From Acetobacter indonesiensis (GTDB lineage Bacteria; Pseudomonadota; Alphaproteobacteria; Acetobacterales; Acetobacteraceae), in the NCBI RefSeq assembly GCF_000963945.1, contig NZ_BAMW01000015.1, positions 124,001-188,000 on the forward strand: a stretch of 64,000 bases of DNA, given 5' to 3'. Positions 28,459 through 44,200 of this stretch are shown piece by piece. Within the stretch, counting starts at the first letter, position 1, and each line of letters begins with the position of its first letter. A program made the position numbers and the translations under genes. Under the pieces are notes generated by a model that saw only the letters and a program-made list of their open reading frames with translations, did not search any database and had not been told where the DNA came from.

Positions 28459-28508
28459 TCTGGCTGCCTAAGCGCGCCTTTACAGTCTATCGCTGTCTAT
28501 AAGTAAGT

Positions 28509-28542
28509 AGGCTCGCAGGGGAAACTCTGCGAGCCTTTCTGT
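28509..28542 (+). terminator. Rho-independent terminator after the S46 peptidase gene
   Basis: Perfect 10-bp stem AGGCTCGCAG (28509-28518) with CTGCGAGCCT (28527-28536), an 8-nt loop, then a T-rich run. Confidence 0.9.
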
Positions 28543-28694
28543 TTTGTGACGGGTGTGGTGACACAAAACCGTAACATATCCTCCGCTTCTCCTGTGCAAT
28601 CGCTTTGCAGTATGCTTTGCTTGGGCAAAATAAACGATGCACCACGCATGGCTTGGTGTGGACAAAACGAAGATGAACAGGGGAGACGGCAGCA

Positions 28695-30974
28695 GTGACG
28701 GCACAGGGGAAAAAGGGAACAAGATCCGCCAGTGCCACGAGGACGCCCGCCCGCAGGCGGACAGCCACGCGCAGCACGCCCCGGACGCCGCGTAAAAAAC
28801 CTGCTGCCCCCAAAATCACCTTTGACTCTCCACAACGGTTCATCAACCGTGAACTCTCTTGGCTGGATTTTAACCAGCGGGTGGTTGAAGAGGCCGATAA
28901 TACGCGTAATCCGCTGCTTGAGCGGCTGCGCTTCCTGTCCATCAGCGCCAGCAATCTGGATGAATTTTATTCCGTGCGTGTGGCCGGTCTGGTGGGGCAG
29001 GTGCGTGAAGGGCTGGTTGCCCTTTCCCCAGATGGACTGACACCTGTTGAACAGCTTGAAGCCGTGCGCGAACGCTGTGCGACCCTGCTGCGGGAACAGC
29101 AGCGGATATGGACAGAGCTGCGGGGTGCGCTTGCGCAGTCAGGGGTGGTTCTGTGCGATCCGTCTGATCTGTCTGATACAGACCGCGCATGGCTGGAAAC
29201 TTGCTTCATGGATCGGGTATTCCCCGTGCTCACGCCATTGGCGGTTGACCCGGCGCATCCGTTGCCGTTCATCCCGAATATGGGGCTGGCGCTAGGCCTG
29301 AGGCTACTATCGGCTGAAAACGGTGCGTTTGCCATGAACGCCCTTATTCTGCTGCCATCACAGGTTGAGCGCTTTATCCGTCTGCCGACGGAGCAGGGTG
29401 ATGCAGCCGGTAGCCGCACCATCCGTTTCATTCGGTTGGAAGATTTGATTACGCTCTGCATGGATAAGCTGTTCCCCGGCCTGACGGTGGGCGAAAGCGG
29501 CATGCTGCGCGTGGTCCGTGATACGGACGTGGAGTTTGAGGACGAAGCCGAAGATCTGGTTCGCTCCTACGAAACAGCCCTGAAGCGCCGCCGCCGTGGG
29601 GTCGTCATTCATCTTGATATGGAAGAACGGATACCTGACGAACTGGCCGAGGCTATAGCCTCTGGCCTTGATCTGCCGTCTGAAGAAATCGCCGTGCATT
29701 CAGGCATGATTGGCGTAGTTGATCTGAAGCAGATGATTGTGGATGACCGCCCTGATCTGCTGTTCAGCCCATACACGCCGCGTTTTCCTGAACGGATACT
29801 GGACTTCAATGGTGACTGCTTTGCCGCCATTCGGGCCAAGGACCTGTTGGTCCATCATCCGTTTGAAAGCTTTGACGTCGTGGTGCAGTTTCTGCGGCAG
29901 GCGGCCCTTGATCCGAATGTCATTGCTATCAAGCAGACCCTGTATCGCACATCGCGCGACTCACCTATTGTCAAAGCCCTGATTGAAGCGGCCGAGGCCG
30001 GGAAATCCGTCACGGCTATGGTAGAGCTTCGGGCCCGGTTTGATGAAGAAGCCAACATCCGTCTGGCGCGTGCGCTTGAAGCGGCTGGCGTGCAGGTGGT
30101 GTTTGGCTTTGCGGACCTGAAAACCCACGCCAAGCTCAGTCTTGTTGTGCGGCGCGAGGGCGCACAGGTGCGGTCTTACGCGCATTTTGGCACGGGAAAC
30201 TATCACCCCATCACCGCCAAGATTTACACGGATTTATCGTTCTTTACCTGCAAGCCAGAACTGGCGCGGGATTCTGCGCGGTTGTTCAATTACGTGACCG
30301 GCTACGCCATGCCTGCGGAAATGGAAGCGATTTCGTTCTCTCCCATCACCATCCGGCGCACGTTGATTGAGCTGATTGAAGAAGAAATGGCCCATGTCAA
30401 AGCGGGCCGTCCGGGCACAATCTGGCTGAAAATGAACTCGCTGGTTGACCCGGCGCTGATTGACCAGCTCTATCGGGCATCTTGCGCCGGGGTAAAAATT
30501 GTCGGGGTTATCCGGGGTATCTGCTGCTTGCGGCCCGGTGTGCCGGGTTTGTCTGAAAACATCCGTATCAAATCCATTGTCGGGCGTTTTCTGGAACATT
30601 CGCGTATTTTTGCGTTTGGTAATGGGCATCGCCTGCCGTCACGCTATGCAAAGGTCTATCTGTCTTCCGCTGACTGGATGACCAGAAACATGGACTGGCG
30701 CGTCGAAAGCATGGTGCCGGTGACAAACCAGACCGTGCATGCCCAGATGCTAGGGCAGATTATGGTGTCAAACCTGAAGGATAATCTGCAATCCTGGATG
30801 CTGGAACAGAATGGCGCGTGGCACAGGCTTAGCCCGGGTGCGCGCCCGTTCTCGGCACATGACTGGTTCATGACGCATCCGTCGCTTTCTGGCCGTGGGT
30901 CTGCCGCGCATGAAGGGCCTATCCGCGCTCCGGCTTCTCTGCCGTCATCAAAGGACATGCTGTTTGATGAATAA
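28695..30974 (+). CDS. ppk1: Polyphosphate kinase 1
   Basis: Polymerises the gamma-phosphate of ATP into inorganic polyphosphate, reversibly, at the membrane. 759 residues, compared with about 690 for the family; the surplus is an N-terminal tail (1-40) rich in Lys, Arg, Thr and Pro. The kinase domains begin at [13 protein letters not shown]. The autophosphorylated histidine is H497 in [10 protein letters not shown], and the second active-site histidine is H635 in FLEHSRIF. The start is GTG at 28695 with GGGAG upstream. ppx follows 64 bp later, so synthesis and breakdown of polyphosphate are coupled in one unit. Confidence 0.96.
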
Positions 30975-31038
30975 AAGAGTTTGCAAACAGAAGCCGTGCA
31001 GGGTTTTCCCGCTGTGTTTTCCAGAGTAAAACGCCTGC

Positions 31039-32535
31039 ATGCAAACTGATACACCACGCCGTTCGGCCGTTGTTGATCTGGGCTCCAATTCGGTTCGCCT
31101 TGTGGTTTTTGAAGGTGTATCGCGGAACCCTGTTCCTATTTTCAATGAAAAGGCCGTTCTGCGTCTTGGGCGGGGCCTGACGGCCACTGGCCGCCTGAAC
31201 GAAGAAGGTGTCAGCATGGCTATGGAAGTGCTCAGTCGCTTCCACGCCATTGCCCGCGCCATGAACGCCGAGCCCTTTGAGATTCTGGCTACTGCTGCCG
31301 TGCGTGACGCCACCAATGGCCCGGATTTTGTCAAAGCATTGCGCGAGAATATGCCGGGGGTGCCTATCCGTATTCTCTCGGGTGAGGAAGAAGCTGATCA
31401 TTCTGCCATTGGCGTGATGTGCGGCATCCCGGAAGCATCTGGGCTGGTAGCGGACGTTGGCGGTGGGTCGCTTGAACTGATCAGACTGACAAGTAATGGC
31501 CGACACGACGCCAATACCCTGCCGCTGGGTGTTATCAGACTGAGCGACCGCGCGAAGGGCGATCTGAATGTCGCCAAAAATCTGGCAGATGCGGATATTG
31601 GCGGGGTGGACTGGTTGCCGCAGGTAAAAGGCGGTACATTATATCTGGTGGGCGGGGCCTTCCGTGCGCTTGCGCGTTTGCATATTGCCCGCATGCAATA
31701 CCCGCTAAACATTGTCCATTATTACACTCTTGGCCTTGAAGAGGCACGAGAAATGACGGGCTGGTTGCTCCATGCGCCGCGCCGTAGCCTTGAACGCCTG
31801 CCGGGGGCTCCTAAAAAACGGCTGGATGATATTCCGTTTGCCGCCACGGTGCTGCGCCGCTTACTGCGCAAGGTTCAGCCTGAACGGGTGATTTTCTGCG
31901 TCGATGGCCTGCGTGAAGGCTGGTACATGCTGAATGTTGCACCGGATTTTCTGCCGCAGGACCCGATGCAGGTTGTCGCGCACGATATGTGCAGCCGTCT
32001 GGGCCGCAGCAATACGCTGCCCGATGTTCTGATGAACTGGACAAACGGGCTGTTTGCGGACGAAACGCTGCATCAATCGCATTTGCGCCGCATTGCCTGC
32101 TGGCTGTCAGATGTGGGTAGCCATGATCACCCGGAATATCGTGCTGAACAGACATACTGGCGTATTTTGCGCCTACAGGGCGTTGGCTTTGACCATGAAG
32201 CCCGTGCGTGGCTGTCTCTGGCACTGGCGGTTCGCTACGCGGCTGACCTGAACGCCGAGTTCCTGTCAACATCCAGAACCCTGCTGGATGAAAAGCAGTG
32301 GAAGCAGGCAGTTGTTCTGGGGCTGGCTCTTCGGTTGGCTTATTCTGTCTCAGGCGGTACGGACGTGTTGCTTGAAGGCACGGCCCTGACATGGGAAGGC
32401 AGGGAACTTGTGCTGCGCCTCGGGTCCTCTCGCGTGGCCGTGCGCGGTGAAAGCGTGGGCCGAGGGCTGACCCGCTTGGGGCAGGCGCTTGAGGTCCAGA
32501 CACGTGTTGAAGCAGAACAGTTGGTTACGCCCTAA
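31039..32535 (+). CDS. ppx: Exopolyphosphatase / guanosine pentaphosphate phosphatase family
   Basis: Ppx/GppA phosphatase of the actin-like ATPase superfamily, 498 residues. The two nucleotide/polyphosphate-binding motifs are VVDLGSNSVRLVVF (about 11-24) and VADVGGGSLELI (about 138-149); an HD-like C-terminal helical domain follows. It releases phosphate from polyphosphate ends or from pppGpp; its place directly after ppk1 favours polyphosphate. The following 209-bp gap contains only a GC hairpin (32595-32615) and the start region of the next gene. Confidence 0.94.
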   Translation: MQTDTPRRSAVVDLGSNSVRLVVFEGVSRNPVPIFNEKAVLRLGRGLTATGRLNEEGVSMAMEVLSRFHAIARAMNAEPFEILATAAVRDATNGPDFVKALRENMPGVPIRILSGEEEADHSAIGVMCGIPEASGLVADVGGGSLELIRLTSNGRHDANTLPLGVIRLSDRAKGDLNVAKNLADADIGGVDWLPQVKGGTLYLVGGAFRALARLHIARMQYPLNIVHYYTLGLEEAREMTGWLLHAPRRSLERLPGAPKKRLDDIPFAATVLRRLLRKVQPERVIFCVDGLREGWYMLNVAPDFLPQDPMQVVAHDMCSRLGRSNTLPDVLMNWTNGLFADETLHQSHLRRIACWLSDVGSHDHPEYRAEQTYWRILRLQGVGFDHEARAWLSLALAVRYAADLNAEFLSTSRTLLDEKQWKQAVVLGLALRLAYSVSGGTDVLLEGTALTWEGRELVLRLGSSRVAVRGESVGRGLTRLGQALEVQTRVEAEQLVTP

Positions 32536-32744
32536 CTCAGTGCTGGTTGCCCCCTCTTTTTAGCGAAACAGGTTTGCAGGGAAACCAAAGGTTTGTTCAT
32601 CCCTTAGGGGTGGACAAGCCTGTCTGTTCTGGGCACCATTACAAAATCTACACCTAATCCGGCAGATGTCTGGTTTCAGGCATGACGTTGTGTTTGACCT
32701 GCGGGACAAGGGCATCCGTGACCGTAGTCAGTGGAAAATAGCAC

Positions 32745-35084
32745 GTGCCTTCTGATGAGATAATCGACCCGACCTTGCAGCACGATGTCTCCGTGCGCCG
32801 TGTGCTGTTGCATCTGGTTTTGCCGCTGCTGTCGCTGGTGTTGGGGATTGTGGCGGTTATCCTCATTGGTGTGCATTCCTACCGCACGACCCGCGCCGGT
32901 GTGGAAACACTGACGCATGAACTGCTGGGGGCTGTTCAGCACTATATTGCGCAGGAAGTCTCGGACTACATCAGGCCGGCTCTGGGCGGGAACATTATTG
33001 CCAGCAGCATGATAGAGCATGTGCCCGCCGGTGTGCAGGAACGTGTGTTCTATTCATATGGCGCAGCCATGCTACGCAGCATCCCGCAGTTGCAGTCATT
33101 CTATCTGGCGGATGATCAGGGTCACTTCATTCTGATCACCCGGCATGGAAAAGACGGAAAACAGCAGGAGCGCACGACGCTGCAAGTGCATGATAGTCGT
33201 AAGGTTTTTCACCACGACTATTACACAGACGACGGCGTAAAGGTGGGCGAAGCAGATGACCCTGCGCCCGAAGACTATGACCCGCGCAAACGGGCCTGGT
33301 ATCAGAATACCGAGGGCACGGACGCTATTAAATGGACCCAGCCGTTCCTGTTTCCGACGGATAAGCAGTTTGTCATGACCAGTTCGCTGCGCTTCAAAGG
33401 GCAGGATGGTCATACACTGGTTTTTGCAACCAATATTTCTCTGAACGCGCTCAGTACTTTTCTGGACAATATCAAGGTCGGGAAGTCGGGTAACGCCATT
33501 GTTCTTGATAAACAGGGGCGGGTGATGGCGGGCCGTAATCTGATGCAGATTGCAGAATCTGCCGGGTGGGACCCGAACAAGATGGTGCTCGACCCTAAAA
33601 CCCATCCGGTTTTTGCGCGCGGGTATGATCATTACCGCGTGCATGGTCTGGGGCCGCGCAGCTTCACCATTAATGGCAAGCAATATGTTACCATTGCTGC
33701 GCCGCTTCCCAATTCGACTGAAGGGTGGATATTGCTGCTTTCCGCCCCTGAAAGTGATTTTGCCAGCTTTGCCAAACAGAGCAGCCAGCAGAGCCTTCAG
33801 TTTGCAGGCGTTATCATTACCTTTTCGCTGGTCTTGGCCGCATTGCTTATCCGGCAGGTTCGCCGGTCAGAGCGGAGTGCCCGGCTTCTCAAGCGGCAGG
33901 ATACACAGATTGCCCACGAAACTTCTGCCGTGCAGCAGGTGGCGGCCACGCCTGCATTGTTTGACCCGGCGAATGACGCTTTGGTGCTGACTGAACAACT
34001 TGCCTACATAACCAATGCGCATCGCGCCAGCATCTGGCGGTTTCTGCACGATGGGTCAGCCATGATCTGCGAAGATTCGTATGATCAGAAGCAGGATGCC
34101 CATTCCGGCGGTTTTGAAATGTCGCGTTCCGAACTGGATGAGTTTTTCAAAGCGGTTGAGGATGGTGAAGCCTTTACGCTCCCCAATGCGGCGATAGACG
34201 CCCGCACAACCCAGTTTGAACGGCTGGTCATGCGTGAAATTGGCACGCATGTTCTGGCGGTTTACCCCATTCATGGTGCAGGCGGCGTATTGGGTGCTGT
34301 GGTGCTTGAGGATGCGACCATGGCCCCGCATCTGGTTTATTTTGTTGACCTTGTGGCGTCTATTGCCGGTATGCGGCTAATGGCGTTGCAGGGCGTTTCT
34401 TCCCCGGAAGATGAAAAAGCATCAGGCGATGACGGCGGATTCCACGCTGCATTGCAAAACGCAGCGTCTCTGCCCGCAACCCGTTTTGATAATATGCTGA
34501 TGCATGCGCCAGAAGTGGGCGGTGTCAGTTCATCGGGGATTTACCCGGCTGTTGCCGTGCTGGTCATTACGTTTTCTGACCCCGTTGTGGATGGAGAGAA
34601 AGAGACCGAGGGTCTGCTGGCCTTGATCAATCAGTTGGCCACCGAAGTGCAACGTGTTGCGCAGGAGCGGAAACTGTTTGCGGTTGAGGTCGCCGGTCAC
34701 AGGATGATCTGCATGGCAGGCTGCACGCCAGATGAAGACCCGACAGCCGTGATCCGCATGGCAGATGCCGCGTTGACGATGCGAGAAACCTTCATGGCGG
34801 CGCTGGCCGCAGCCGACCTTGAACCCGTGTTTACCATGGGGCTGGATTACGGGGCTGCGTTTGGTGGCGCTGTTGGGGAAGACCCGAAAGTGTTCAACCT
34901 GTGGGGGCAGACTGTTTCTTTGGCCGAGCTGATGGCGCAGGGGGCAGCAGACGCAGGCACCATTCAGGTGACGGAGCGGGTCTATAGTGCGCTACGTGAC
35001 CGTTATCTGTTCCGCAGCCGTGGGGCATTCTTTGCACCACATCTGGGGCTGGGGCGTGCCTACGTTCTGGCAGCGCGACGATGA
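32745..35084 (+). CDS. Membrane sensor: Cache domain, GAF-like domain and degenerate class III cyclase domain
   Basis: A 779-residue protein starting at GTG. One membrane helix (about 20-42), a large periplasmic region resembling a double Cache domain (about 45-345, with the DPRKRAWYQ motif), a second helix (352-370), a GAF-like region (about 410-545) and a C-terminal class III adenylate/guanylate cyclase-homology domain (about 600-779). In the last, every catalytic position I can align by eye is lost: the two metal Asp positions read Thr609 (VLVITF) and His652 (VAGHRM), and the Asn and Arg of the transition-state motif read Ser725 and Leu729 in WGQTVSLAELM. It is probably a non-catalytic, ligand-sensing regulator. 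The stop overlaps the mlaE-like start (ATGA). Confidence 0.8.
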   Translation: MPSDEIIDPTLQHDVSVRRVLLHLVLPLLSLVLGIVAVILIGVHSYRTTRAGVETLTHELLGAVQHYIAQEVSDYIRPALGGNIIASSMIEHVPAGVQERVFYSYGAAMLRSIPQLQSFYLADDQGHFILITRHGKDGKQQERTTLQVHDSRKVFHHDYYTDDGVKVGEADDPAPEDYDPRKRAWYQNTEGTDAIKWTQPFLFPTDKQFVMTSSLRFKGQDGHTLVFATNISLNALSTFLDNIKVGKSGNAIVLDKQGRVMAGRNLMQIAESAGWDPNKMVLDPKTHPVFARGYDHYRVHGLGPRSFTINGKQYVTIAAPLPNSTEGWILLLSAPESDFASFAKQSSQQSLQFAGVIITFSLVLAALLIRQVRRSERSARLLKRQDTQIAHETSAVQQVAATPALFDPANDALVLTEQLAYITNAHRASIWRFLHDGSAMICEDSYDQKQDAHSGGFEMSRSELDEFFKAVEDGEAFTLPNAAIDARTTQFERLVMREIGTHVLAVYPIHGAGGVLGAVVLEDATMAPHLVYFVDLVASIAGMRLMALQGVSSPEDEKASGDDGGFHAALQNAASLPATRFDNMLMHAPEVGGVSSSGIYPAVAVLVITFSDPVVDGEKETEGLLALINQLATEVQRVAQERKLFAVEVAGHRMICMAGCTPDEDPTAVIRMADAALTMRETFMAALAAADLEPVFTMGLDYGAAFGGAVGEDPKVFNLWGQTVSLAELMAQGAADAGTIQVTERVYSALRDRYLFRSRGAFFAPHLGLGRAYVLAARR

Positions 35085-35965
35085 GCGCCGCCCCGCGCGA
35101 ACCCGGTGCAGACCGTGACCCGGTGCTGGAGGCCGATACCGCCAGCCGAAACGTGCACCAGCGTTTTGTTCTGCATGAATGGATACGCGTCAAGCTGGCA
35201 TGGTTGGGCAGGCTGACACGGCATCAGGCATGGTTTCTGCTCATCATGCTTGGCGCAAGCTGGGGGGTGGTGTTTGAAAGTTTCCGCTCCCACTCATGGC
35301 GCAGAACGGTCCGGTATGAATTCGGCGTTACGCTGAACAGTGTTATTGGTGGGGGGCTGATTGCCACGCTGTTTACTGGCACCCTGACTGGTGTGGCTGC
35401 GGTGTCGCAGACCATTTACTGGCTGGGTTTTGCTGGTTTGGCCAAAATGACAGGCTCTATCCTGATCAATGTTGTGGTGCGTGAAATTGCGCCTATTCTG
35501 GTTGGCATCATGCTGCTGGGCCGCAATGGGATGCTGTCCGTTACGGAACTTGGGTTGCTGACAACGGGCGGGCAGATACGCTCCATGCAGGCGCAGGGGC
35601 TTGATCCGTTTCTGCTTCTGGTTGTGCCCCGCACGCTGGCGTTTACGGTTGGCGGGTTTACGCTGGGTATTCTGTTTTCTTTCGCGGCCCTGCTGACAGG
35701 GTACGTTATCAGTCGGATATCGGGTGTTATTACCAATCCGGTCTGGACGTTTTTTTATGATGTGGTGGTTGCCATGTCGCACATGGATTATCTGATCATT
35801 CCTCTAAAATTTATTACCGTGGGGTTTGTGGTCGGGTTGGGGGGCTGCCTGACCGGGTTGACCGCCACCAGTGAAGATAATCTGCGTACGCTGTTGCCTC
35901 GTGGTTTTTCGCGCGGGCTGCTGATTGTCATGGCAGTCAGCGTTCTGTTCAGTCTGGACCTGTAA
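35081..35965 (+). CDS. MlaE-family ABC transporter permease
   Basis: Inner-membrane permease of MCE/Mla-type phospholipid transport systems, 294 residues. After a hydrophilic N-terminus (1-60) come membrane segments typical of MlaE, with the conserved regions TGTLTGVAAVSQ, VVREIAPILVGIMLLGRNG, ELGLLTTGGQIRSMQAQGLDP and FVVGLGGCLTG. The E-x-G-x2-x2-T-x-G-Q-IRSM stretch is the coupling-helix region that contacts the ATPase. Translationally coupled to the upstream cyclase-like sensor by 4 bp, with the ABC-like gene directly behind it. Confidence 0.92.
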   Translation: MSAAPREPGADRDPVLEADTASRNVHQRFVLHEWIRVKLAWLGRLTRHQAWFLLIMLGASWGVVFESFRSHSWRRTVRYEFGVTLNSVIGGGLIATLFTGTLTGVAAVSQTIYWLGFAGLAKMTGSILINVVVREIAPILVGIMLLGRNGMLSVTELGLLTTGGQIRSMQAQGLDPFLLLVVPRTLAFTVGGFTLGILFSFAALLTGYVISRISGVITNPVWTFFYDVVVAMSHMDYLIIPLKFITVGFVVGLGGCLTGLTATSEDNLRTLLPRGFSRGLLIVMAVSVLFSLDL

Positions 35966-35966
35966 G

Positions 35967-36668
35967 ATGGACACACGAACAGTTGGCCCGCTGCTTGAAC
36001 TGAATAAGGCCGTACCGTCTTTTGAAGAAAGCGGCCTGCCACCTGTGCCGTTCAGCATGCGGATTATGCCCGGCGAGTGTGTGGTGGTTGAAGCGCGTGA
36101 TGCCTCACGCGCCACTATGTTTGCCGATATGTGTGCGGGGCTTGTGCCGCTTGATGATGGGTCGGTAAAATTCATGGGGCTGGATTGGGCCACCCTGAAA
36201 GACCGGGAAATTAACGCCCTGCGGGGGCGCATTGGCCGGATTACCCGCAGGCCGAGCTGGCCTGAGTTTTTAAGCACGCATCTGGGCATTGCGCTTCAGC
36301 AGTTGCACCACACCAACCGCCCGCTTGATGAGGTGGTTGCCGAGGCATCACGGTTAAGCGAATGGTTTGGTCTGCCGGGGTTGCCCGTCTTGCGGCCAAG
36401 CATGCTTTCGGATTCTGATCTTTTACGGGCGGCCTGTGTACGGGCTTTTCTGGGCCGCCCACGCCTGTTGCTTCTGGAAGACCCGCTGGAGGCAAGTCCC
36501 GTCGATTTGGAAAACCCGTTTCTGGGGGCCATGACCGATGCACGGGATAAAGGGGCTGGGGTTATCTGGCTGGTACGGAATAATGCCATATGGCAGGCGT
36601 ACCGGCAGGGTGTAACCAGTATGTGGCGTCTTGCCGATGATGGGCTAGTAGCAGTACGGACGGGGTAA
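35967..36668 (+). CDS. MlaF-like ABC protein with degenerate nucleotide-binding motifs
   Basis: A 233-residue protein in the position of the Mla ATPase (permease before, MCE protein after) with an ABC-like length and fold pattern. The Walker A position reads EARDASRAT (42-50): all glycines lost, Lys replaced by Arg48. The signature LSGGQ reads LSDSD (147-151), Walker B ends in LLLLEDP (167-173) with Asp and Glu swapped, and the H-loop His is Arg204. The frame is intact and uses codons like its neighbours, so this is not a fresh pseudogene. It probably cannot hydrolyse ATP; it may be structural, or the family assignment may need a profile search. The start at 35967 lies 1 bp after the permease stop. 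Confidence 0.75.
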   Translation: MDTRTVGPLLELNKAVPSFEESGLPPVPFSMRIMPGECVVVEARDASRATMFADMCAGLVPLDDGSVKFMGLDWATLKDREINALRGRIGRITRRPSWPEFLSTHLGIALQQLHHTNRPLDEVVAEASRLSEWFGLPGLPVLRPSMLSDSDLLRAACVRAFLGRPRLLLLEDPLEASPVDLENPFLGAMTDARDKGAGVIWLVRNNAIWQAYRQGVTSMWRLADDGLVAVRTG

Positions 36669-37618
36669 TGTTCCAGATCCGCTTACGACAGAAAGTTAAA
36701 CCGCTTGTCTCTCTCCGCTATGCGGATGAATGGGTCGGCTTCCTTGTGCTTCTTAGCGTGGTGCTGTTTGCCGGCGCGGTAATAGAAGCCGGTGTTCTGC
36801 GCGACTGGCTGACGCCGCCAGCCAAGCTGCGCGTCACATTGCCCGCCGGGGGCGTGGGTGGCCTGACCGTGGGCGGGGATGTGCAGCTTCTGGGCGCACA
36901 TGCGGGCACTATTCGGTCAATCAAACTCAATCCGTCAGGCGATATGTATGCGGTTGTTGACCTTGACCCGCAGATCAAGCCGTTCATTCGGCGTGACAGC
37001 ACGGCCGTTATCCGCAAGCAGTTTATTGTGGCGGGCTCTGCCTATCTTGATCTGAACCGGGGTCATGGGGATGCTATGGATTGGGCGTATGCCGTCATCA
37101 ATGCAACGCCTGCGCCTAACCCTGCGGATATGATAACGGCCACATTGAATGACATTCAGGCCCAGATCATGCCCGCCTTGGCCAGCGCACGGCATATGAT
37201 GGCACAGCTTGATGCCACCATTACCGATATGCATGCGGGCAAAGGGTCTATCGGGCAACTGATGACCAATGATGATCTGATCCGTCAGGCACAGGCTGCC
37301 GCAGTGTCGCTCAATACAGTAATCGAACGACTGAAGCCGATTGAACAGCAGGTTTCCGGCATCATGAACAAGACTGATGCCACAATGGGAAATCTGAAAT
37401 CTGCATCTCATGATCTGAAAGGTGCAACCCCGCATCTACCCGCTATTGCAGGTAGTGTAGAAGCCAGCACAGCGGACCTTCCGGCCCTGTTGGCGCAGGC
37501 GCAGACCACATTGTATGGGCTTGAAAAACTGACGGACCAGCTGCGCGGCATGTGGCTGCTAGGTGGCACCAAGGTCGATAAGAAAACGCGACTTGCACCA
37601 AAGCAGGTGCGGCCATGA
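36668..37618 (+). CDS. MCE-domain protein, MlaD-type periplasmic lipid-binding subunit
   Basis: A 316-residue protein with a single N-terminal membrane helix (about 22-42), an MCE domain (about 50-130, ending AGSAYLDLNRG) and a long helical C-terminal part with a coiled-coil character (about 150-300). MCE proteins form hexameric rings that carry phospholipids across the periplasm. The start codon shares one base with the previous stop (TAATG), and the stop overlaps the next start (ATGA). Confidence 0.9.
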   Translation: MFQIRLRQKVKPLVSLRYADEWVGFLVLLSVVLFAGAVIEAGVLRDWLTPPAKLRVTLPAGGVGGLTVGGDVQLLGAHAGTIRSIKLNPSGDMYAVVDLDPQIKPFIRRDSTAVIRKQFIVAGSAYLDLNRGHGDAMDWAYAVINATPAPNPADMITATLNDIQAQIMPALASARHMMAQLDATITDMHAGKGSIGQLMTNDDLIRQAQAAAVSLNTVIERLKPIEQQVSGIMNKTDATMGNLKSASHDLKGATPHLPAIAGSVEASTADLPALLAQAQTTLYGLEKLTDQLRGMWLLGGTKVDKKTRLAPKQVRP

Positions 37619-38544
37619 GGCGCGTTCATGCGCTCCTCCTGCTAGGCCCGCTTTTTCTTGCGGGCTGTGGGGGTAAGGCAGAAGCACCGTCTGCACGGGA
37701 TGATGCCCAGTGGGAACAGGCCATGACAGCGGGTCAGGATTCCTTTGATCTTGGCCGTTACAGCGTTGCCATAACCCAATTCCGTAAAGCATCGGAACTG
37801 GCGTTAATGCGCGACGATGGTGCCGCCACTGCCGAGGCTGGATACAATCTGGCGGTGGCGCAACTGGCCGCTGACCAACCAGCTGATGCCGTGGCCACCA
37901 TACAAACGGCCCGGCAGGCCGCAATGCTACGTGGGCAGAATGGGCAGGCGGCGTTTGATCTGGTGGAAGCCGCGGCCGATTACCGACTAAAGCAGTTGCC
38001 CCAGTCCGTTCACTTGGCGTCGCAGGCTATGACGGCCGATGATTCGGCGGTGGCGGCGCGGGCTGCACTGATTCTGGGGCTGGCGGCAGATGAGGCGGGA
38101 GAAGCCTCCGCCCTTCAGCAGGCGAATGCTTATTTGCAAGGTATCAAGCCGCCACTTTCCCGTTCGGTTGAGGCCGATAAAGCAGAAATTTCGGCACGAA
38201 CCCTGATGGCGAACAACCCGGCTGAAGCTGCAGAGCTTGCTGAAAAAGCCGCAAACCTGCGGCGTGATGATGCAGCCTATCGTGATATGTCTCGGGCATT
38301 AGCGCTTGCTGCGACGGCAACCGAAAGGGCAGGCGACCATCAGAAGGCTGCCGCATTGTGGGCGCGTGCTGCCCAGAGTGCTGCCATGCAGGCCAATAAG
38401 GCCGCCAGCACAGACACAACCACCGTTGCGCATGGGGCGTTCTTCAAAGGGGGCACGCGCACGGCTGAAAGTGATGCAGCACAGTGGGCCAGACTGGCTG
38501 GGGGCGTGTCACTGCACCCCTTTGCTGACCCAGCCAAAAAGTAA
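37615..38544 (+). CDS. TPR-like lipoprotein of the Mla-type operon
   Basis: A 309-residue lipoprotein with LAGC lipobox (Cys18) after MRRVHALLLLGPLF. The mature part is alanine-rich helical sequence with tetratricopeptide-like pairs (for example SFDLGRYSVAITQFRKASEL, about 43-62, then EAGYNLAVAQLAADQPADAV). It occupies the place of the auxiliary outer-membrane lipoprotein found in many MCE operons but does not look like that family; a scaffold role is inferred. Coupled to the MCE gene by 4 bp; last gene of the five-gene unit. Confidence 0.82.
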   Translation: MRRVHALLLLGPLFLAGCGGKAEAPSARDDAQWEQAMTAGQDSFDLGRYSVAITQFRKASELALMRDDGAATAEAGYNLAVAQLAADQPADAVATIQTARQAAMLRGQNGQAAFDLVEAAADYRLKQLPQSVHLASQAMTADDSAVAARAALILGLAADEAGEASALQQANAYLQGIKPPLSRSVEADKAEISARTLMANNPAEAAELAEKAANLRRDDAAYRDMSRALALAATATERAGDHQKAAALWARAAQSAAMQANKAASTDTTTVAHGAFFKGGTRTAESDAAQWARLAGGVSLHPFADPAKK

Positions 38545-38568
38545 GCAAACATCAGCGAAGCGTGCAAA

Positions 38569-38589
38569 GCTGACAGCGTAAAAGTCAGC
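38569..38589. terminator. Possible terminator hairpin between convergent genes
   Basis: GCTGAC (38569-38574) and GTCAGC (38584-38589) form a short perfect stem between the TPR lipoprotein gene and the convergent secreted-protein gene. There is no T run, so this is weak. Confidence 0.35.
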
Positions 38590-38601
38590 CTTGTCGGTCT
38601 G

Positions 38602-39264
38602 TTACTGAAGCAAACACTGGCCAACCGCCGGCGGCGCATCGCGCAGAAGAGGCACGCCGTGTTTAGGGGAATGCCCGTTTGTGATTGCGCCGAGATGAAC
38701 TGACTGGTCAACCGTGTAAGTCGTGCCATTGAAATATGCTGGCGCAGCATAGCCCTGCAGGATGCCGCCCCCTGCAATCTGCACAGTTAAATCTGGCCAG
38801 CCATTGTGCTGCGTAGGAAGCTTTGTGATGGGCAGATGCACAACGGTGCGCGCTGTCATGACACGAAACACAGGGTAAGCGAGCGTTCTATCATCCCGAT
38901 CGGCCAGAATGGTGGTTGCGCATCCTGCCGTTCCGCAAAAAGAGTTGGAAAGGATATAGGCAACCACATCCCGATGCTGGGGGCGAAGTGTTCCTACGGA
39001 GAGCACGATGGTTGCCTGATCAAGATCATCCTTGCCAGTCGCTTCAGACGGAGCGGGCAGGTTATAGGCCAGACGGAGTTGCTGTTTCAGATCGCTGATC
39101 TGCAAGGCCGTAAGAAATTTGGTATCACATGGTGGCGATTGCCTTAGCGCCCGAATATCGTCAGCGTGTGCTTCAGGCGGTGTCGCGGTCATGACACCGA
39201 ATACACAGGCCGCAGCCGCCAGAGGTCTGGCAGATACCCAATAACGAGACGAAAAAGCCGACAT
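38602..39264 (-). CDS. Secreted protein of unknown function
   Basis: A 220-residue protein with a signal peptide that probably ends at AHA (residue 34). AAGGAG lies 7 bases before the ATG at 39264. Four Cys in the mature part (PPCDTKF, SNSFCGTAGCATT, VGQCLLQ) could form disulfides in the periplasm. The pattern FCGTAGCATTIL followed by a YPVFRVMTARTVVHLP segment recalls small secreted inhibitor-like proteins, but I cannot assign a family. Monocistronic, 43 bp upstream of the guaD stop. Confidence 0.7.
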   Translation of the reverse strand: MSAFSSRYWVSARPLAAAACVFGVMTATPPEAHADDIRALRQSPPCDTKFLTALQISDLKQQLRLAYNLPAPSEATGKDDLDQATIVLSVGTLRPQHRDVVAYILSNSFCGTAGCATTILADRDDRTLAYPVFRVMTARTVVHLPITKLPTQHNGWPDLTVQIAGGGILQGYAAPAYFNGTTYTVDQSVHLGAITNGHSPKHGVPLLRDAPPAVGQCLLQ

Positions 39265-39307
39265 GGAAACTCCTTATAGCGACTGGCTAAAATAGTGTGA
39301 CAGCAGA

Positions 39308-40645
39308 TTAACGCGGAGAGGCATCGGTTCGTTCGTGTACGCACTGGCCATTCACCCATGTGGCCTCGACACATCGGTCGTCACCTAGTGTCATCAAAAC
39401 AAACAGTAGGTCAGCCACGTCTTTGCTTTCGCGTGCTCGGACCGCCAGAAGGGGTGTTGCTTCCGGATTTAATACGCACAGATCGGCCTCCATCCCTGGC
39501 GCAATGGTGCCAATTTTATCTTCCAGATGCAGAGCTTCTGCCCCGCCGCGTGTTGCAAGCCAGAACGCCTGAATGGCGTGCAACCGTTGTGCGCCCGCCA
39601 TAAGAGAAACCTTATAGGCCTCACCCATAGTCGCCAGCAGCGAAAAGCTGGTGCCAGCCCCTACGTCTGTCCCTAGCCCAACATGCACAGGCCGATGGGC
39701 TGCTTTGGCATCAAACAAACGGAATAGCCCGCTGCCCAGAAAGAAGTTGGAAGTCGGGCAGTGGGCAAGGGCGCACCCGGTATCATGGCATTGCTGGAAA
39801 TCATGCTCATGCAGATGAATACCATGACCAAAAATGGCACGCGGACCAACCAGCCCGGCTTGCTCATACACATCCAGATAAGACGTGCTGTTGGGGAACA
39901 GACGCGCGACTTCTTCAATTTCCTTCTGGTTTTCAGAAAGATGCGTCTGCATGAACAGCCCATCCCGGCTGCGATACAGGTCTCCGGCCAGTTCAAGCTG
40001 TTCGGGGGTGCTGGTAATGGCAAAACGTGGGGTGACGGCGTAAAGCTGCCGCCCCTTGCCATGCCAGCGTTCAATCAGGGCCTTAGATTGTTCATATCCG
40101 GTACGTGCGGTATCGCGCAGGTTATCGGGTGCGAGCCGGTCCATCAAAACTTTCCCGGCAATCATACGGGTGCCGATACGCTCTGATTCTTCAAAAAACG
40201 CATCAACAGAGTGTGGGTGCACGGTGCAATAGACTGCGGCGGTTGTGGTGCCGTTGCGCAGCAATTCCGCCATGAAGGTTTTAGCAATGGCTTGCGCTAC
40301 CTGTTTATCAGCAAATCGCGCTTCGGCGGGGAAAACGTATTGTTGCAGCCATGCCAGCAGTTCCTCACCCCAGGACGCAATAACGGGGAGCTGCGGGTAA
40401 TGAACGTGGCTGTCAATAAAACCAGCGCTGATCAGTCTGTTTGGATAGTGCTTTACGTTAACACCATCTTGCAGAAATACGCGTGTTTGGTCGTAAGGGC
40501 CACAATGGGTAATTTTCCCATCGGTTATCAGGATCAGCCCGTCTTCCTCAATAGACAGTGCCTCGTGCGGGGCGGTCACAAATGGATTGGCACGAAACGT
40601 GACAACGCATCCGCGCAGGGCGGCGTGACGGGCTGTGGCAGACAT
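39308..40645 (-). CDS. guaD: Guanine deaminase
   Basis: Zinc amidohydrolase that converts guanine to xanthine and ammonia. 445 residues from the ATG at 40645, which has AGGAG 7 bases upstream; the open frame further 5' has no support. Metal and substrate motifs are visible in order: FIDSHVHYPQ (HxH), PRFAITST, MQTHLSENQKE, GHGIHLHE and the final Asp in GLGTDVGAGTS. Purine salvage or use of guanine as nitrogen source. It diverges from the potassium channel gene. Confidence 0.93.
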   Translation of the reverse strand: MSATARHAALRGCVVTFRANPFVTAPHEALSIEEDGLILITDGKITHCGPYDQTRVFLQDGVNVKHYPNRLISAGFIDSHVHYPQLPVIASWGEELLAWLQQYVFPAEARFADKQVAQAIAKTFMAELLRNGTTTAAVYCTVHPHSVDAFFEESERIGTRMIAGKVLMDRLAPDNLRDTARTGYEQSKALIERWHGKGRQLYAVTPRFAITSTPEQLELAGDLYRSRDGLFMQTHLSENQKEIEEVARLFPNSTSYLDVYEQAGLVGPRAIFGHGIHLHEHDFQQCHDTGCALAHCPTSNFFLGSGLFRLFDAKAAHRPVHVGLGTDVGAGTSFSLLATMGEAYKVSLMAGAQRLHAIQAFWLATRGGAEALHLEDKIGTIAPGMEADLCVLNPEATPLLAVRARESKDVADLLFVLMTLGDDRCVEATWVNGQCVHERTDASPR

Positions 40646-40810
40646 GGTGGCTCCTGATGATGCAAGGGGTACTCTCGGCCTTGTTACGCGGGTTTGCGCA
40701 ACGGTTCCATGCGCAATTGAGCAGCGCGGAACAAAAGCTGCGGGTGTATCACCGCATCCCGGCACAGCCATGGTGGGTTTCATGGCGGCTTCGGCAGAAA
40801 AGAGGCAGAC

Positions 40811-41821
40811 ATGAAAAGCTTATGGCGGCGGGTCAGGGAAAAGCGTGAAGATCAGAAGGCAGCGCGATACACCAAGCTGGATGAACTGCCCCCGCAAGAG
40901 GGGGAACCCGGTAAGCCGCGCAAACCCCGGCTGAGCACAAAGGATGCCGTCAAGCGCTTTAGGGCGCACGCGCTGGTTGAAGAAAAAAGCCACCGCGACG
41001 TCGTGCGTGTGGGGCTGCGCGATAGTGTGTGGACAGATTTATACCACCACGCGCTGACAGCAAGCTGGCCTGCCTTCGCTTACACCGCTGTGCTGTCTTA
41101 TTTTCTGGTTAATCTGTTTTTTGCCCTGCTGTACTGGCTGGCACCGGATCAGGTGACGGGTGACAGCAAGCACACGTTGCTCTCGCTTTTCTTCTTCAGT
41201 GTGCAGACCCTGTCCACTGTTGGCTATGGCGGCATGGTGCCGGTCGGGCTGTACTCAAACATAGTGGTCACGTTTGAAGTGCTGATTGGCATGATGATCA
41301 ATGCGCTGGCCACGGGTGTTGTGTTTGCCCGTTTTGCGCGCCCACGTGCGCGGATCATGTTCAGTAATACAGCCGTAATCAGCAACGAAAACGGTGTGCC
41401 TGCACTGTGCATCCGCATAGCCAATTTACGGATGAGCGTGATTTTATCCGTGGATGTGGAGGTCGCGCTGTCGCGGCTGGTTATGGTTGAAAACGGGCAT
41501 CTTGTGCGTCAGTTTGACCAGCTTCTGGTTGTGCAGTCCCACGTTCCGGTTCTGAAATTTGCATTTGTTATGGCGCATGTGATTGGGCCGGATAGCCCAT
41601 TGCATGGCAAGACTGTCGCTGAACTGGAGCATGAAGAGGCCGAAATTGTCGTCACCGTAACCGGTACGGATGAAGCATTGGGCCAGACTGTTTTTGCCCG
41701 GACCGCCTATCGGTTTGACAAGGTGCGGCATAATCATCGCTTTGTGGATATTGTTGCGTCCCGCCCAGATGGACGGATAGCGGTCGATTACACGCGGTTT
41801 CACGATATTGAAGAACATTGA
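40811..41821 (+). CDS. Inward-rectifier-type potassium channel (KirBac family)
   Basis: A 336-residue channel of the bacterial Kir family. A cytoplasmic N-terminus with an amphipathic slide-helix region (about 65-85) precedes the first membrane helix (about 88-112), the pore helix and the selectivity filter T136-V-G-Y-G140, the inner helix (about 150-175) and a C-terminal immunoglobulin-like cytoplasmic domain beginning RPRARIMFSNTAVIS. The SVQTLSTVGYGGM pore and the C-terminal domain match KirBac proteins. Probably sets potassium flux; nothing nearby points to a specific signal. A GC hairpin (41827-41853) follows the stop. Confidence 0.93.
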   Translation: MKSLWRRVREKREDQKAARYTKLDELPPQEGEPGKPRKPRLSTKDAVKRFRAHALVEEKSHRDVVRVGLRDSVWTDLYHHALTASWPAFAYTAVLSYFLVNLFFALLYWLAPDQVTGDSKHTLLSLFFFSVQTLSTVGYGGMVPVGLYSNIVVTFEVLIGMMINALATGVVFARFARPRARIMFSNTAVISNENGVPALCIRIANLRMSVILSVDVEVALSRLVMVENGHLVRQFDQLLVVQSHVPVLKFAFVMAHVIGPDSPLHGKTVAELEHEEAEIVVTVTGTDEALGQTVFARTAYRFDKVRHNHRFVDIVASRPDGRIAVDYTRFHDIEEH

Positions 41822-41956
41822 CCTACGGCGCACGGTTTCCAATTCTATGCGCCATTCAGTTAAGTTTTTTGCGCCGGGTCATATTTTTTTGTTAAGTTGG
41901 TGCAGAAAAAAAGCATGTGCTTGTTTGATACGGCCACCCTACCGTTTAACGGGGGA

Positions 41957-44200
41957 CTACGGACGGTTGTTCTGCGGAGCCCGAACATGAAAGCGGCGTG
42001 TCATATCAAGAAACGTCGCATTCTCGGCTAACTCGTGCCGCAGCACTTCCAGACTGCCAACGGCACGTGCAAGTTCAAGATGTGTGGACAGGTTATGTTT
42101 TTTCAAAGCTGCTTGAAGCGCCTTTTCCAACGCATGGGACGCTGCCTGGGCTGGCTGTAGAGAGTAGCCATGTATGTGGGAAATAGTTTTCAAAACATGC
42201 TGAATACTCTGGGCCTGTTCTGTCGGCAGGTTTTCATAGGTGAGAACGTGCTGAAGGCGCAAAACCACCAGACCAATTGTCATAAGCCCCATAGCGCCGG
42301 CCAGATAGGCTTCTGTTACCGGATCAGGCGAAGTGCCTGCATGCCTGATAATCTGTGCCAGTCTGCCACCGGAAAGCGCAATCCAGTCTGACGTTGAAAA
42401 GTCTTTTTGAGAGGATGCAAGATTGCGGAGGTCACGCACCAGTTTGCGGCGCAGTCTCCAGCGCTCTGCAGCAGCATCAAAAGGCAACACTAATCTGAAT
42501 ACCCACACACCAAGACCAATGCCCAGAACCACGGCCGGGGTGGAGTTCAACCACATAATTTCATCCATGCGCGTATGGTTTGCGGGGCCAACCATGAAGG
42601 GGAGAAAATTGTTGTAGGGGGCTGCTGTCCCTCCAAACGCGGGTGAACGCAATGCCAACCCGCCCACCAGCATGGGAAAAAACAGGGACGCCAGTAATGT
42701 CTCGTTACTGGCCTGTTGCGGTAAAATCCAGAAAACCAGAAAGAAGGATACAATTGCTGCCCAGACAGCCCCACGTAGAAAACCGTTTGATGCCTGCACC
42801 GGATTTTCAAATGATGAAAAGCGTGTGCTGGTAACAGCAACAAACATGGCGACAATCGCCCCCTCGGGCCATGCTGTGACTTCCCACAATAAACCGCCAA
42901 TGCAGATTGCAACGGCAGACCGCAAACCATTATTCAACGCAAGTGTGAAATCTTTTTCGGGGTGTTGATCAAACCGAAAGTGATCATGTGGAAGCGGATG
43001 CTGCGTGGCAATGAAATGGGCCAGAGCGACATCCAGTTCCAGCAGGAGTTTGGCCAGAGCACCTTCCAGAATACGGCTTTCCAGAAGATCCCGCATTTCT
43101 GGTGTTGGGGACGTATTGGTTAGCCGGAGATTCTGAAAACGCACCAGATGATCAACTGCACGTTGAAGGCAATCCGAACGATGGTGCTGTAACATCAGGC
43201 GGATGGATGTTGCCGCTTCAACCGGATGATCGCCCATCAGTTGATTGGGAACCTGACTGAGCAGCAGGGAGATTTTTTGCAGCGTATTTTGAAAAACCTC
43301 AGGGAGTGGAGCGGCGGCGCGCATATGAATATGCAGGCTTAACCCGCGTGCCAGAAATGTTGAGATAGCCCCCAGAGACGCACGTGCGTGATCGCCTGCG
43401 TGAGAGTGTGGGCCCATTTCGATATCACTGAATTCAGTTTGATCAGCGAGTGAGGGAATGCTGCCTAACAATGCCCGTGACCGGAACAGTCCATCCTGAT
43501 GGCCCAGTAGAAGGTCCGTCATACCGCGGCAGGCACCACACAGAGCATCTTGCAGGCGGCCCAGTATTTCCTGTTGTGCAACATGGTCAAGCCGTGGAGC
43601 AAACAGCATGGCCAGTCCGCTTTCACAGAGAATACCCAGCGTAATATAGGTGGTTCGTGAAAGGGCAATCATGAACACATTGTCCGGTTGATTGGCCGCG
43701 CTTAGCACAATAATGGTGCAGGTAAAGGCAATTAAAACTAATGCATATGAGCGGAAGTTTCTTAAAAAAGTGGCGTAACCGCAGCAGATACCAGCCCCCA
43801 CGGCTAAAGCGGGGAATAATAGCCATGGGCTTTGTGGAAAGGCAGCCAGATAGGCAACGCCAGCAACCGCCCCGATAAAGGTACCGGCTAACCGCCATTT
43901 GGCTTTTGATAAACTCTGCCCACGCGAATTCTGTGCGACGATCCAGGCGGTCATGGGGGCCCATTGAGGGCTATCCATTTCCATCCACAAGGCAATGGTC
44001 AAAGCCAGCAGGGCTGCGCATGTGGTTCGTAGAGCAAACCCCAGATTAGCTGGGCTGGGGGCAAATAGCCATGCAAATGGGGTGGTTTCGTTCAGGCTTG
44101 TTCGTTGTTCGCTTATTTGGCTGGCCCATTGTCGCACACGGGCGGGTAGATAAGCAGAAAGTGAAAAAGCAAACACGGACAGATCATTCTCCCTCATCAT
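41957..44200 (-). CDS. FUSC family membrane protein (first of two paralogues)
   Basis: A 747-residue protein with two bundles of about six membrane helices (about 45-195 and 385-540), separated and followed by cytoplasmic helical regions, as in the FUSC/YccS/AaeB proteins thought to export aromatic acids and other amphiphiles. The ends of the bundles keep the family pattern WAPMTAWIVAQNSRGQSLSKAKWRLAGT. No HlyD-type or DUF1656 partner is adjacent. Strongly similar along its length to the next gene. The annotated ATG at 44200 lies inside a palindrome and lacks a ribosome site; a GTG at 44176 preceded by AGGGAG is an alternative. Confidence 0.88.
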   Translation of the reverse strand: MMRENDLSVFAFSLSAYLPARVRQWASQISEQRTSLNETTPFAWLFAPSPANLGFALRTTCAALLALTIALWMEMDSPQWAPMTAWIVAQNSRGQSLSKAKWRLAGTFIGAVAGVAYLAAFPQSPWLLFPALAVGAGICCGYATFLRNFRSYALVLIAFTCTIIVLSAANQPDNVFMIALSRTTYITLGILCESGLAMLFAPRLDHVAQQEILGRLQDALCGACRGMTDLLLGHQDGLFRSRALLGSIPSLADQTEFSDIEMGPHSHAGDHARASLGAISTFLARGLSLHIHMRAAAPLPEVFQNTLQKISLLLSQVPNQLMGDHPVEAATSIRLMLQHHRSDCLQRAVDHLVRFQNLRLTNTSPTPEMRDLLESRILEGALAKLLLELDVALAHFIATQHPLPHDHFRFDQHPEKDFTLALNNGLRSAVAICIGGLLWEVTAWPEGAIVAMFVAVTSTRFSSFENPVQASNGFLRGAVWAAIVSFFLVFWILPQQASNETLLASLFFPMLVGGLALRSPAFGGTAAPYNNFLPFMVGPANHTRMDEIMWLNSTPAVVLGIGLGVWVFRLVLPFDAAAERWRLRRKLVRDLRNLASSQKDFSTSDWIALSGGRLAQIIRHAGTSPDPVTEAYLAGAMGLMTIGLVVLRLQHVLTYENLPTEQAQSIQHVLKTISHIHGYSLQPAQAASHALEKALQAALKKHNLSTHLELARAVGSLEVLRHELAENATFLDMTRRFHVRAPQNNRP

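Follow-up and report, generated by a model that had tools for sequence, protein, structure and literature searches.

An MCE/MlaE operon conserved in Acetobacteraceae with a pseudo-ATPase at the MlaF position and a pseudo-cyclase sensor

MlaE permeases are understood as ATP-binding cassette (ABC) transporters that need an ATPase. In the Mla system (MlaFEDB–C), the permease stands together with the ATPase MlaF, the MCE protein MlaD, the STAS protein MlaB and MlaC. The Mpc system of Brucella and other Hyphomicrobiales (mpcEFDA) has, according to the accessible part of its description, the gene order E-F-D-lipoprotein, with an MlaE-type permease that carries a STAS domain, an MpcF homologous to MlaF, an MCE protein of more than 300 amino acids with a long C-terminal part, and a PqiC-like lipoprotein encoded in the operon; the same part of that paper names PqiABC and LetAB as MCE systems without an ATPase (PMC12436622). 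Here we describe an operon at positions 32745–38544 of a 64,000-nucleotide stretch of Acetobacter indonesiensis DNA (the window, which belongs to contig C167 of a 3.41-Mb genome), in which a membrane sensor precedes an MlaE permease, an ABC-like protein, an MCE protein and a lipoprotein. Both enzyme-like members, the ABC-like protein and the cyclase-like domain of the sensor, lack an intact active site. The operon is conserved in Acetobacteraceae, and the A. indonesiensis genome contains further MCE systems with intact ATPases.

The initial annotation of this DNA had proposed these five genes in one direction, which was borne out by open reading frames and Pfam matches:

32745–35084, forward strand: Cache-GAF-pseudo-cyclase membrane sensor, 779 amino acids, GTG start (Pfam, hydropathy, catalytic columns)
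35081–35965, forward strand: MlaE-family permease, 294 amino acids (Pfam MlaE, tree, coupling-helix comparison)
35967–36668, forward strand: pseudo-ATPase with the fold of an ABC nucleotide-binding domain, 233 amino acids (motif alignment, structure model)
36668–37618, forward strand: MCE protein, 316 amino acids (Pfam MlaD, hydropathy)
37615–38544, forward strand: TPR-type lipoprotein, 309 amino acids (lipobox, model, structure matches)

The junctions are, in gene order, a 4-bp overlap, a 1-bp gap, a 1-bp overlap and a 4-bp overlap (−4, +1, −1, −4), so that the 4-bp overlaps or 1-bp gaps first reported for every junction hold for three of them, the other being a 1-bp overlap.

Mpc is the nearest described system found. 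Shared with it are the order E-F-D-lipoprotein, the MlaE-type permease, the operon-encoded lipoprotein and an MCE protein that, at 316 amino acids, fits the length of its Mpc counterpart, as far as the accessible part of PMC12436622 describes these. The operon differs in its dead ABC subunit, in a TPR lipoprotein that takes the place of the PqiC-like one, in a permease that falls into a separate tree group, and in its sensor gene, of which that part of the paper makes no mention; none of the five proteins gave a STAS match (Pfam), a difference to be read with caution, the Mpc-type permease of the same genome having only a weak STAS_2 match itself. In Mpc, the MCE protein is marked by a long helical C-terminus that forms a needle. 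With Mla the operon shares the MlaE and MCE (MlaD) families and an ABC-fold subunit at the place of MlaF, but it is without a live ATPase, its MCE protein is longer, and its five proteins contain no MlaB (STAS) or MlaC match; MlaB was sought among these five proteins, and MlaC was found elsewhere in the genome. PqiABC and LetAB have the membrane proteins PqiA and LetA where this operon has MlaE, and only the operon has kept an ABC-fold subunit. The initial annotation had considered the five-gene combination undescribed; a search of the open-licence literature likewise gave no description, and we regard the operon as a variant within MCE/MlaE systems that was not previously described in the literature searched.

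The ABC-like protein scored 18.8 bits against the ABC_tran profile, below the Pfam cut-off of 25. For motif counts, 60 open orthologues were aligned with 34 canonical MlaF/MpcF-type proteins, leaving out L085 (incomplete), L086 (the canonical MlaF locus of the same genome) and L091 (an ordinary ABC match). Interrupted or short frames were left out here, as in the residue counts for the cyclase-like domain and the permease below, and all of these counts describe open genes. The Walker A lysine and the glycine preceding it were found in none of the 60 orthologues, and one signature glycine was kept in 2 and the other in 5; the Walker B aspartate was retained in 1 (glutamate stands there in 57) and the following glutamate in 9, whereas the D-loop aspartate, H-loop histidine and Q-loop glutamine were present in 1, 2 and 17, respectively. 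By pattern search, Walker A, signature and Walker B were each present in 34/34 canonical controls and the H-loop in 33/34. GK[ST] occurred in 0/79 ABC-like proteins of the named-record set described below. Conservation is seen at other positions: W74, R86, G138 and R159 in 60/60 orthologues, H115 and P137 in 98%, D151 in 97%, and W98 and P140 likewise in at least 95%. The absence of nucleotide motifs that had been read from the window alone was thus confirmed by the alignment.

The predicted model of the ABC-like protein (predicted local distance difference test score, pLDDT, 91.9) shows a whole nucleotide-binding-domain fold. Its nearest solved structures, from structure comparisons that included Foldseek, number LolD, FtsE, YbbA and MlaF among them (Z 22–26), with Z 25.6 for LolD and Z 24.0 for MlaF (6xgz; root-mean-square deviation 2.8 over 224 aligned residues), and the best NCBIfam matches were DevA and FtsE. 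The initial annotation had allowed that structural alignment might reveal an intact nucleotide site; the motif alignment shows that the site is not intact. The intact fold, the glutamate at the position of the Walker B aspartate and a partly conserved R-D...R-A stretch at the former P-loop (41, 40, 32 and 39 of 60) could be taken to mean that the protein binds or splits nucleotide through a non-standard site, but Walker A, Walker B, the signature, the D-loop and the H-loop have all gone, leaving the composite site without either half, and we consider such an activity very improbable. BLASTP gave 1e-7 for the ABC-like protein against MlaF of the same genome and 0.27 against its MpcF; the protein may descend from MlaF or MpcF or from another ABC ATPase. 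An ancestral live version was sought by running the permease profile against 337 genomes of the class, which returned five bearers of the operon above 300 bits and then permeases at about 100 bits or less; the five of these lower-scoring permeases that were fetched (L126–L130) best matched the Mpc-type permease of the A. indonesiensis genome, and this candidate was rejected. The ABC-like profile, searched against 398 genomes of the phylum, gave five Acetobacteraceae and one genome of a second family with scores of at least 237 bits, followed by 82 bits. No intermediate between live and dead versions was seen in these class and phylum profile searches, which scored the best few candidates per genome and may include misses.

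A search with the ABC-like protein gave matches in 150/150 Acetobacteraceae genomes, owing to ordinary ABC proteins, with the break between these and orthologues lying between 3e-25 and 3e-14; orthologues above the break were present in 46 of the 150 genomes, from 32 genera. Among 45 Acetobacteraceae loci (L041–L085), tblastn (E ≤ 1e-4) detected the genes for sensor, permease, ABC-like protein and MCE protein at all 45 and the lipoprotein gene at 39. In a set of named records, comprising the best 80 of 96 relatives and the genera Acetobacter, Gluconacetobacter, Komagataeibacter, Novacetimonas, Gluconobacter, Asaia, Swaminathania and Tanticharoenia, the five-gene set was complete at 78/80 loci, the two misses running into contig ends; the two sets share species (e.g. 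G030 and L140), and their counts are not independent. The closest permeases among the named records returned, a search that may omit very near records, were those of Acetobacter senegalensis and A. tropicalis (89% identity). In an order-level sample the permease was found at E ≤ 1e-12 in 155/299 genomes, some of the weakest of which may represent other MlaE proteins. With the sets pooled, junctions of 10 bp or less, overlaps included, separated sensor and permease at 115/135 loci (exactly −4 at 107), permease and ABC-like gene at 111/135, ABC-like and MCE genes at 136/139, and MCE and lipoprotein genes at 110/126. Outside Acetobacteraceae there was one strong match in a class sample of 289 genomes; in this second alphaproteobacterial family the permease exceeded 300 bits in 5/17 genomes, with all five genes together at 5/5 loci, and no further bearer family was found in the phylum sample of 398 genomes. 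The gene order, which might have proved peculiar to this genome, is therefore widespread, as the synteny search across Acetobacteraceae established.

For all five genes, the ratio of nonsynonymous to synonymous substitution rates (dN/dS) was well below 1. For the ABC-like gene it was 0.03–0.29 (Nei–Gojobori, nine species pairs), and the other four genes lay in the same range; several dS values exceeded 1 and are rough. Since the same order recurs in many genera and dN/dS is well below 1, the order is not due to chance. The whole fold, the other fixed residues and the low dN/dS together argue that the ABC-like protein has been maintained as a pseudo-enzyme and is no relic. Broken copies do exist (L085 in genome G126) and could suggest a decaying gene or a sequencing artefact, but the gene is present in 46 genomes of 32 genera, its frame is open in the 60 aligned rows (a set limited to open frames), and the breaks in G126 affect most genes there and resemble assembly errors; with dN/dS as given above, we regard decay or artefact as extremely improbable. 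In G126, frame shifts interrupt mlaF and most operon genes, and MlaE is gapped (L255, 1956–6497; L256, 5018–6497), with the lipoprotein in one piece (71% identity to that of G046). A joint loss of the operon and canonical Mla in this genome was considered and rejected, the pieces in shifting frames being 84–95% identical to the operon proteins of G046, and the breaks in this one-contig genome are probably assembly errors.

Some bearers depart from the compact layout. Wide gaps, from several hundred bases up to roughly 1000, were seen in a few, between sensor and permease and between MCE and lipoprotein genes (L061, 5643–6634 and 9197–10094; L193; L205). The permease gene is broken in Gluconacetobacter entanii LTH 4560 (L195) and in G142 (L047; TAG inside the match). 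L193 and L205, with their wide intergenic gaps, and L195, with its interrupted permease, were all counted within the 78 complete loci. The permeases of L116 and L068 were also flagged as broken by script; the L116 match extends a few codons past the start of a 279-amino acid open frame.

The sensor matched Guanylate_cyc at 57.3 bits (cut-off 21.9) and GAF at 28.6 bits (22.4), and its dCache_1 match of 41.3 bits lies below the cut-off of 45. Hydrophobic stretches at residues 25–43 and 351–369 enclose the Cache region, followed by GAF (415–543) and a class III cyclase-like domain at about 600–770, which aligns with adenylate cyclases 8 and 9 and with bacterial cyclases. Catalytic columns were placed from the alignment with the two adenylate cyclases, and we take these to be the two metal aspartates, the transition-state asparagine and the arginine. 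Of 135 rows, 111 keep the first metal aspartate and 2 the second, while 9 have the asparagine and 4 the arginine. The domain thus resembles those of class III nucleotide cyclases but differs from them in that the full catalytic set occurs in 0/135 rows. The initial view that both enzyme-like members of the operon are dead is upheld by the two alignments.

The permease matched MlaE at 107.8 bits (cut-off 22.5). When 41 MlaE proteins were placed in a tree, the 24 of the operon kind stood apart from Mla and Mpc with branch support 100/100; long branches drew a warning from the program, and midpoint rooting serves for drawing only. As to the nearest permease group, BLASTP favours MlaE of the same genome (3e-8, against 0.002 for its MpcE), whereas the next profile matches after the bearers are Mpc-like. 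The ATPase MlaF is held by a coupling helix of MlaE between transmembrane helices 2 and 3, according to the accessible parts of two structural reports (PMC7790496, PMC7784689). In the window permease this helix should be at about 155–176, between hydrophobic stretches at 127–145 and 177–195. The canonical coupling-helix consensus is GTMRVTDQIDAL. Residue 164 is aspartate in 30/30 canonical rows and glycine in 48/57 operon permeases; residue 167, aspartate in 30/30 canonical and 6/6 Mpc-type rows, is arginine in 43/57 operon permeases. The mean of acidic minus basic residues over 13 loop columns was +1.00 for canonical (30), +1.50 for Mpc-type (6) and −0.82 for operon permeases (57). Of the conserved motifs first credited to the permease, the MlaE match therefore stands well above its cut-off, whereas the coupling-helix segment departs from the canonical form. 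We infer that permease and pseudo-ATPase changed jointly.

The genome was searched for other MCE sets, as the initial annotation had proposed, and Mla, Mpc-type and PqiB-like parts were found, the Mla and Mpc-type ATPases being intact. MlaFE with intact motifs lies on contig C144. An Mpc-type set on C152 comprises a permease (whose STAS_2 match of 21 bits does not reach the cut-off of 29.2), an ATPase with Walker A, an MCE protein and an ABC_trans_aux lipoprotein (93.9 bits); C152 also carries a PqiB-like protein with three MCE domains together with an ABC_trans_aux lipoprotein, the PqiA-like gene preceding them having been named by eye. The canonical Mla parts are scattered in this genome, with MlaFE on C144, two different single-MCE proteins on C180 and C137, and MlaC on C180 and C132 (L089, 8680–9228; L090, 9091–9549; L086, 7930–9527).

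An operon permease driven by the MlaF of C144 or the Mpc-type ATPase of C152, with the dead ABC protein as adaptor, placeholder or inhibitor, would account for the intact ATPases in the same genome and for the other MlaE found alongside the operon in the bearers examined, and it has a parallel in the ATPase MceG, which is shared among mycobacterial Mce systems. This borrowing, offered as one reading in the initial annotation, is weakened on several counts. The coupling helix has lost two invariant aspartates, one of them through charge reversal. The dead gene occupies the motor's place in the order E-F-D, and the dead domain is retained under selection. Because an ABC site requires Walker A from one subunit and the signature from its partner, a dimer of the dead protein with a live ATPase would be left without a complete ATP site. 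Finally, 14 of the 46 bearers (13 without the fragmentary G126) have only two MlaE matches; in G025, G029, G046 and G116, which are among them, one is a canonical MlaE (232–251 bits) and the other the operon permease (113–126 bits), so that the operon does not depend on a third, Mpc-type set. We therefore judge borrowing to be unlikely.

The MCE protein matched MlaD at 42.5 bits (Pfam cut-off 25.1) and consists of a hydrophobic stretch (26–44), one MCE domain (54–132) and a long C-terminal part. The lipoprotein has the lipobox LAGC, with Cys18 invariant in 24/24 rows, and in the window protein this cysteine is followed by glycine, not aspartate; under the sorting rule of E. coli, glycine rather than aspartate at this position fits the outer membrane. 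Its TPR_12 match of 18.7 bits lies below the cut-off of 30.1, and its model is all-helical (pLDDT 86.3), the 50 best structure matches (Z 14.6–21.8) being mostly TPR-type superhelices.

Whether the five genes encode an MCE lipid complex across the envelope, with a catalytically dead ABC domain in the motor position under an MlaE permease, is in our estimate evenly balanced. In such a complex, a permease dimer, a pseudo-ATPase dimer, an MCE hexamer and the TPR lipoprotein would form a conduit from the inner to the outer membrane, with the pseudo-ATPase clamping the permease in a structural and regulatory role. The sensor, with Cache outside and GAF and pseudo-cyclase inside, would dock on the pseudo-ATPase and gate the complex, in place of the STAS regulator for which the operon proteins show no match, and lipid would flow downhill or be driven by something other than ATP at the motor site. 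The permeases would thus form a distinct MlaE group with the pseudo-ATPase as a structural or regulatory subunit, and gating by the sensor is probable. More tentatively, the complex may be an ATP-free, signal-controlled lipid channel, in which the periplasm-facing sensor would move the pseudo-ATPase clamp through the pseudo-cyclase and the two dead enzymes would be the gate. That the MCE machine may be driven differently, the other reading offered at the outset, fits better than borrowing.

Several observations weigh against a sensor-gated, ATPase-independent lipid complex. Loci L093 and L096, from one Acetobacteraceae genus, carry permease, ABC-like and MCE genes without an adjoining sensor, and at L095 only the permease is visible before the contig end; no relative of the sensor was found in the three genomes of L093, L095 and L096 by a search made without a positive control. 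The dead ABC domain would, from its presence at L093 and L096, have a role that does not need the sensor. The lipoprotein gene was undetected at 6/45 loci, among them L073 at a contig end, and a few permease copies are interrupted, with stops inside the matches of G142 and G203 and the interruption in L195. Another, canonical-looking MlaE (in pieces in G126) accounts for the best MlaE match, which reaches 5e-69 or better in 45 of the 46 bearers; with another MlaE always present, absence of a lender cannot be used to exclude the lending of a canonical ATPase.

A lipid-sensing or tethering complex that is not a transporter, in which MCE protein, permease and lipoprotein would monitor the condition of the envelope for the sensor to relay to partners, would be in keeping with two dead enzymes and with the GAF and Cache-like domains. 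Such a complex is rather unlikely: purifying selection acts on the genes for permease and MCE protein, whose products score above the MlaE and MlaD cut-offs, the pseudo-cyclase has no obvious output, and the sensor is missing beside the core genes at two loci.

Directly upstream of the operon, at 28695–32535, are genes for a polyphosphate kinase and a Ppx/GppA phosphatase, followed by one further feature:

32589–32621, forward strand: terminator-like hairpin between ppx and the operon, 15 pairs, loop of 3 (pattern scan)

The scan gave 14 such sites in the region against 6.8 expected; this hairpin has the longest stem, and the assignment is a consensus match only. No RNA family reached its gathering score in 27000–42000. 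A functional link between ppk-ppx and the operon was rejected, because adjacency is rare and the hairpin lies in between: the two adjoin at 2/62 loci only (L041 and L100, close Acetobacter relatives), in a count that includes several loci too short upstream to show it and covers loci other than the 80 of the named-record set.

A conserved dead motor in a distinct MlaE group offers a natural experiment on whether MlaE/MCE machines depend on ATP at all, and on what an ABC domain does apart from hydrolysis. Acetic acid bacteria live with acid and ethanol, and in these organisms the operon would tie lipid traffic to an envelope sensor.

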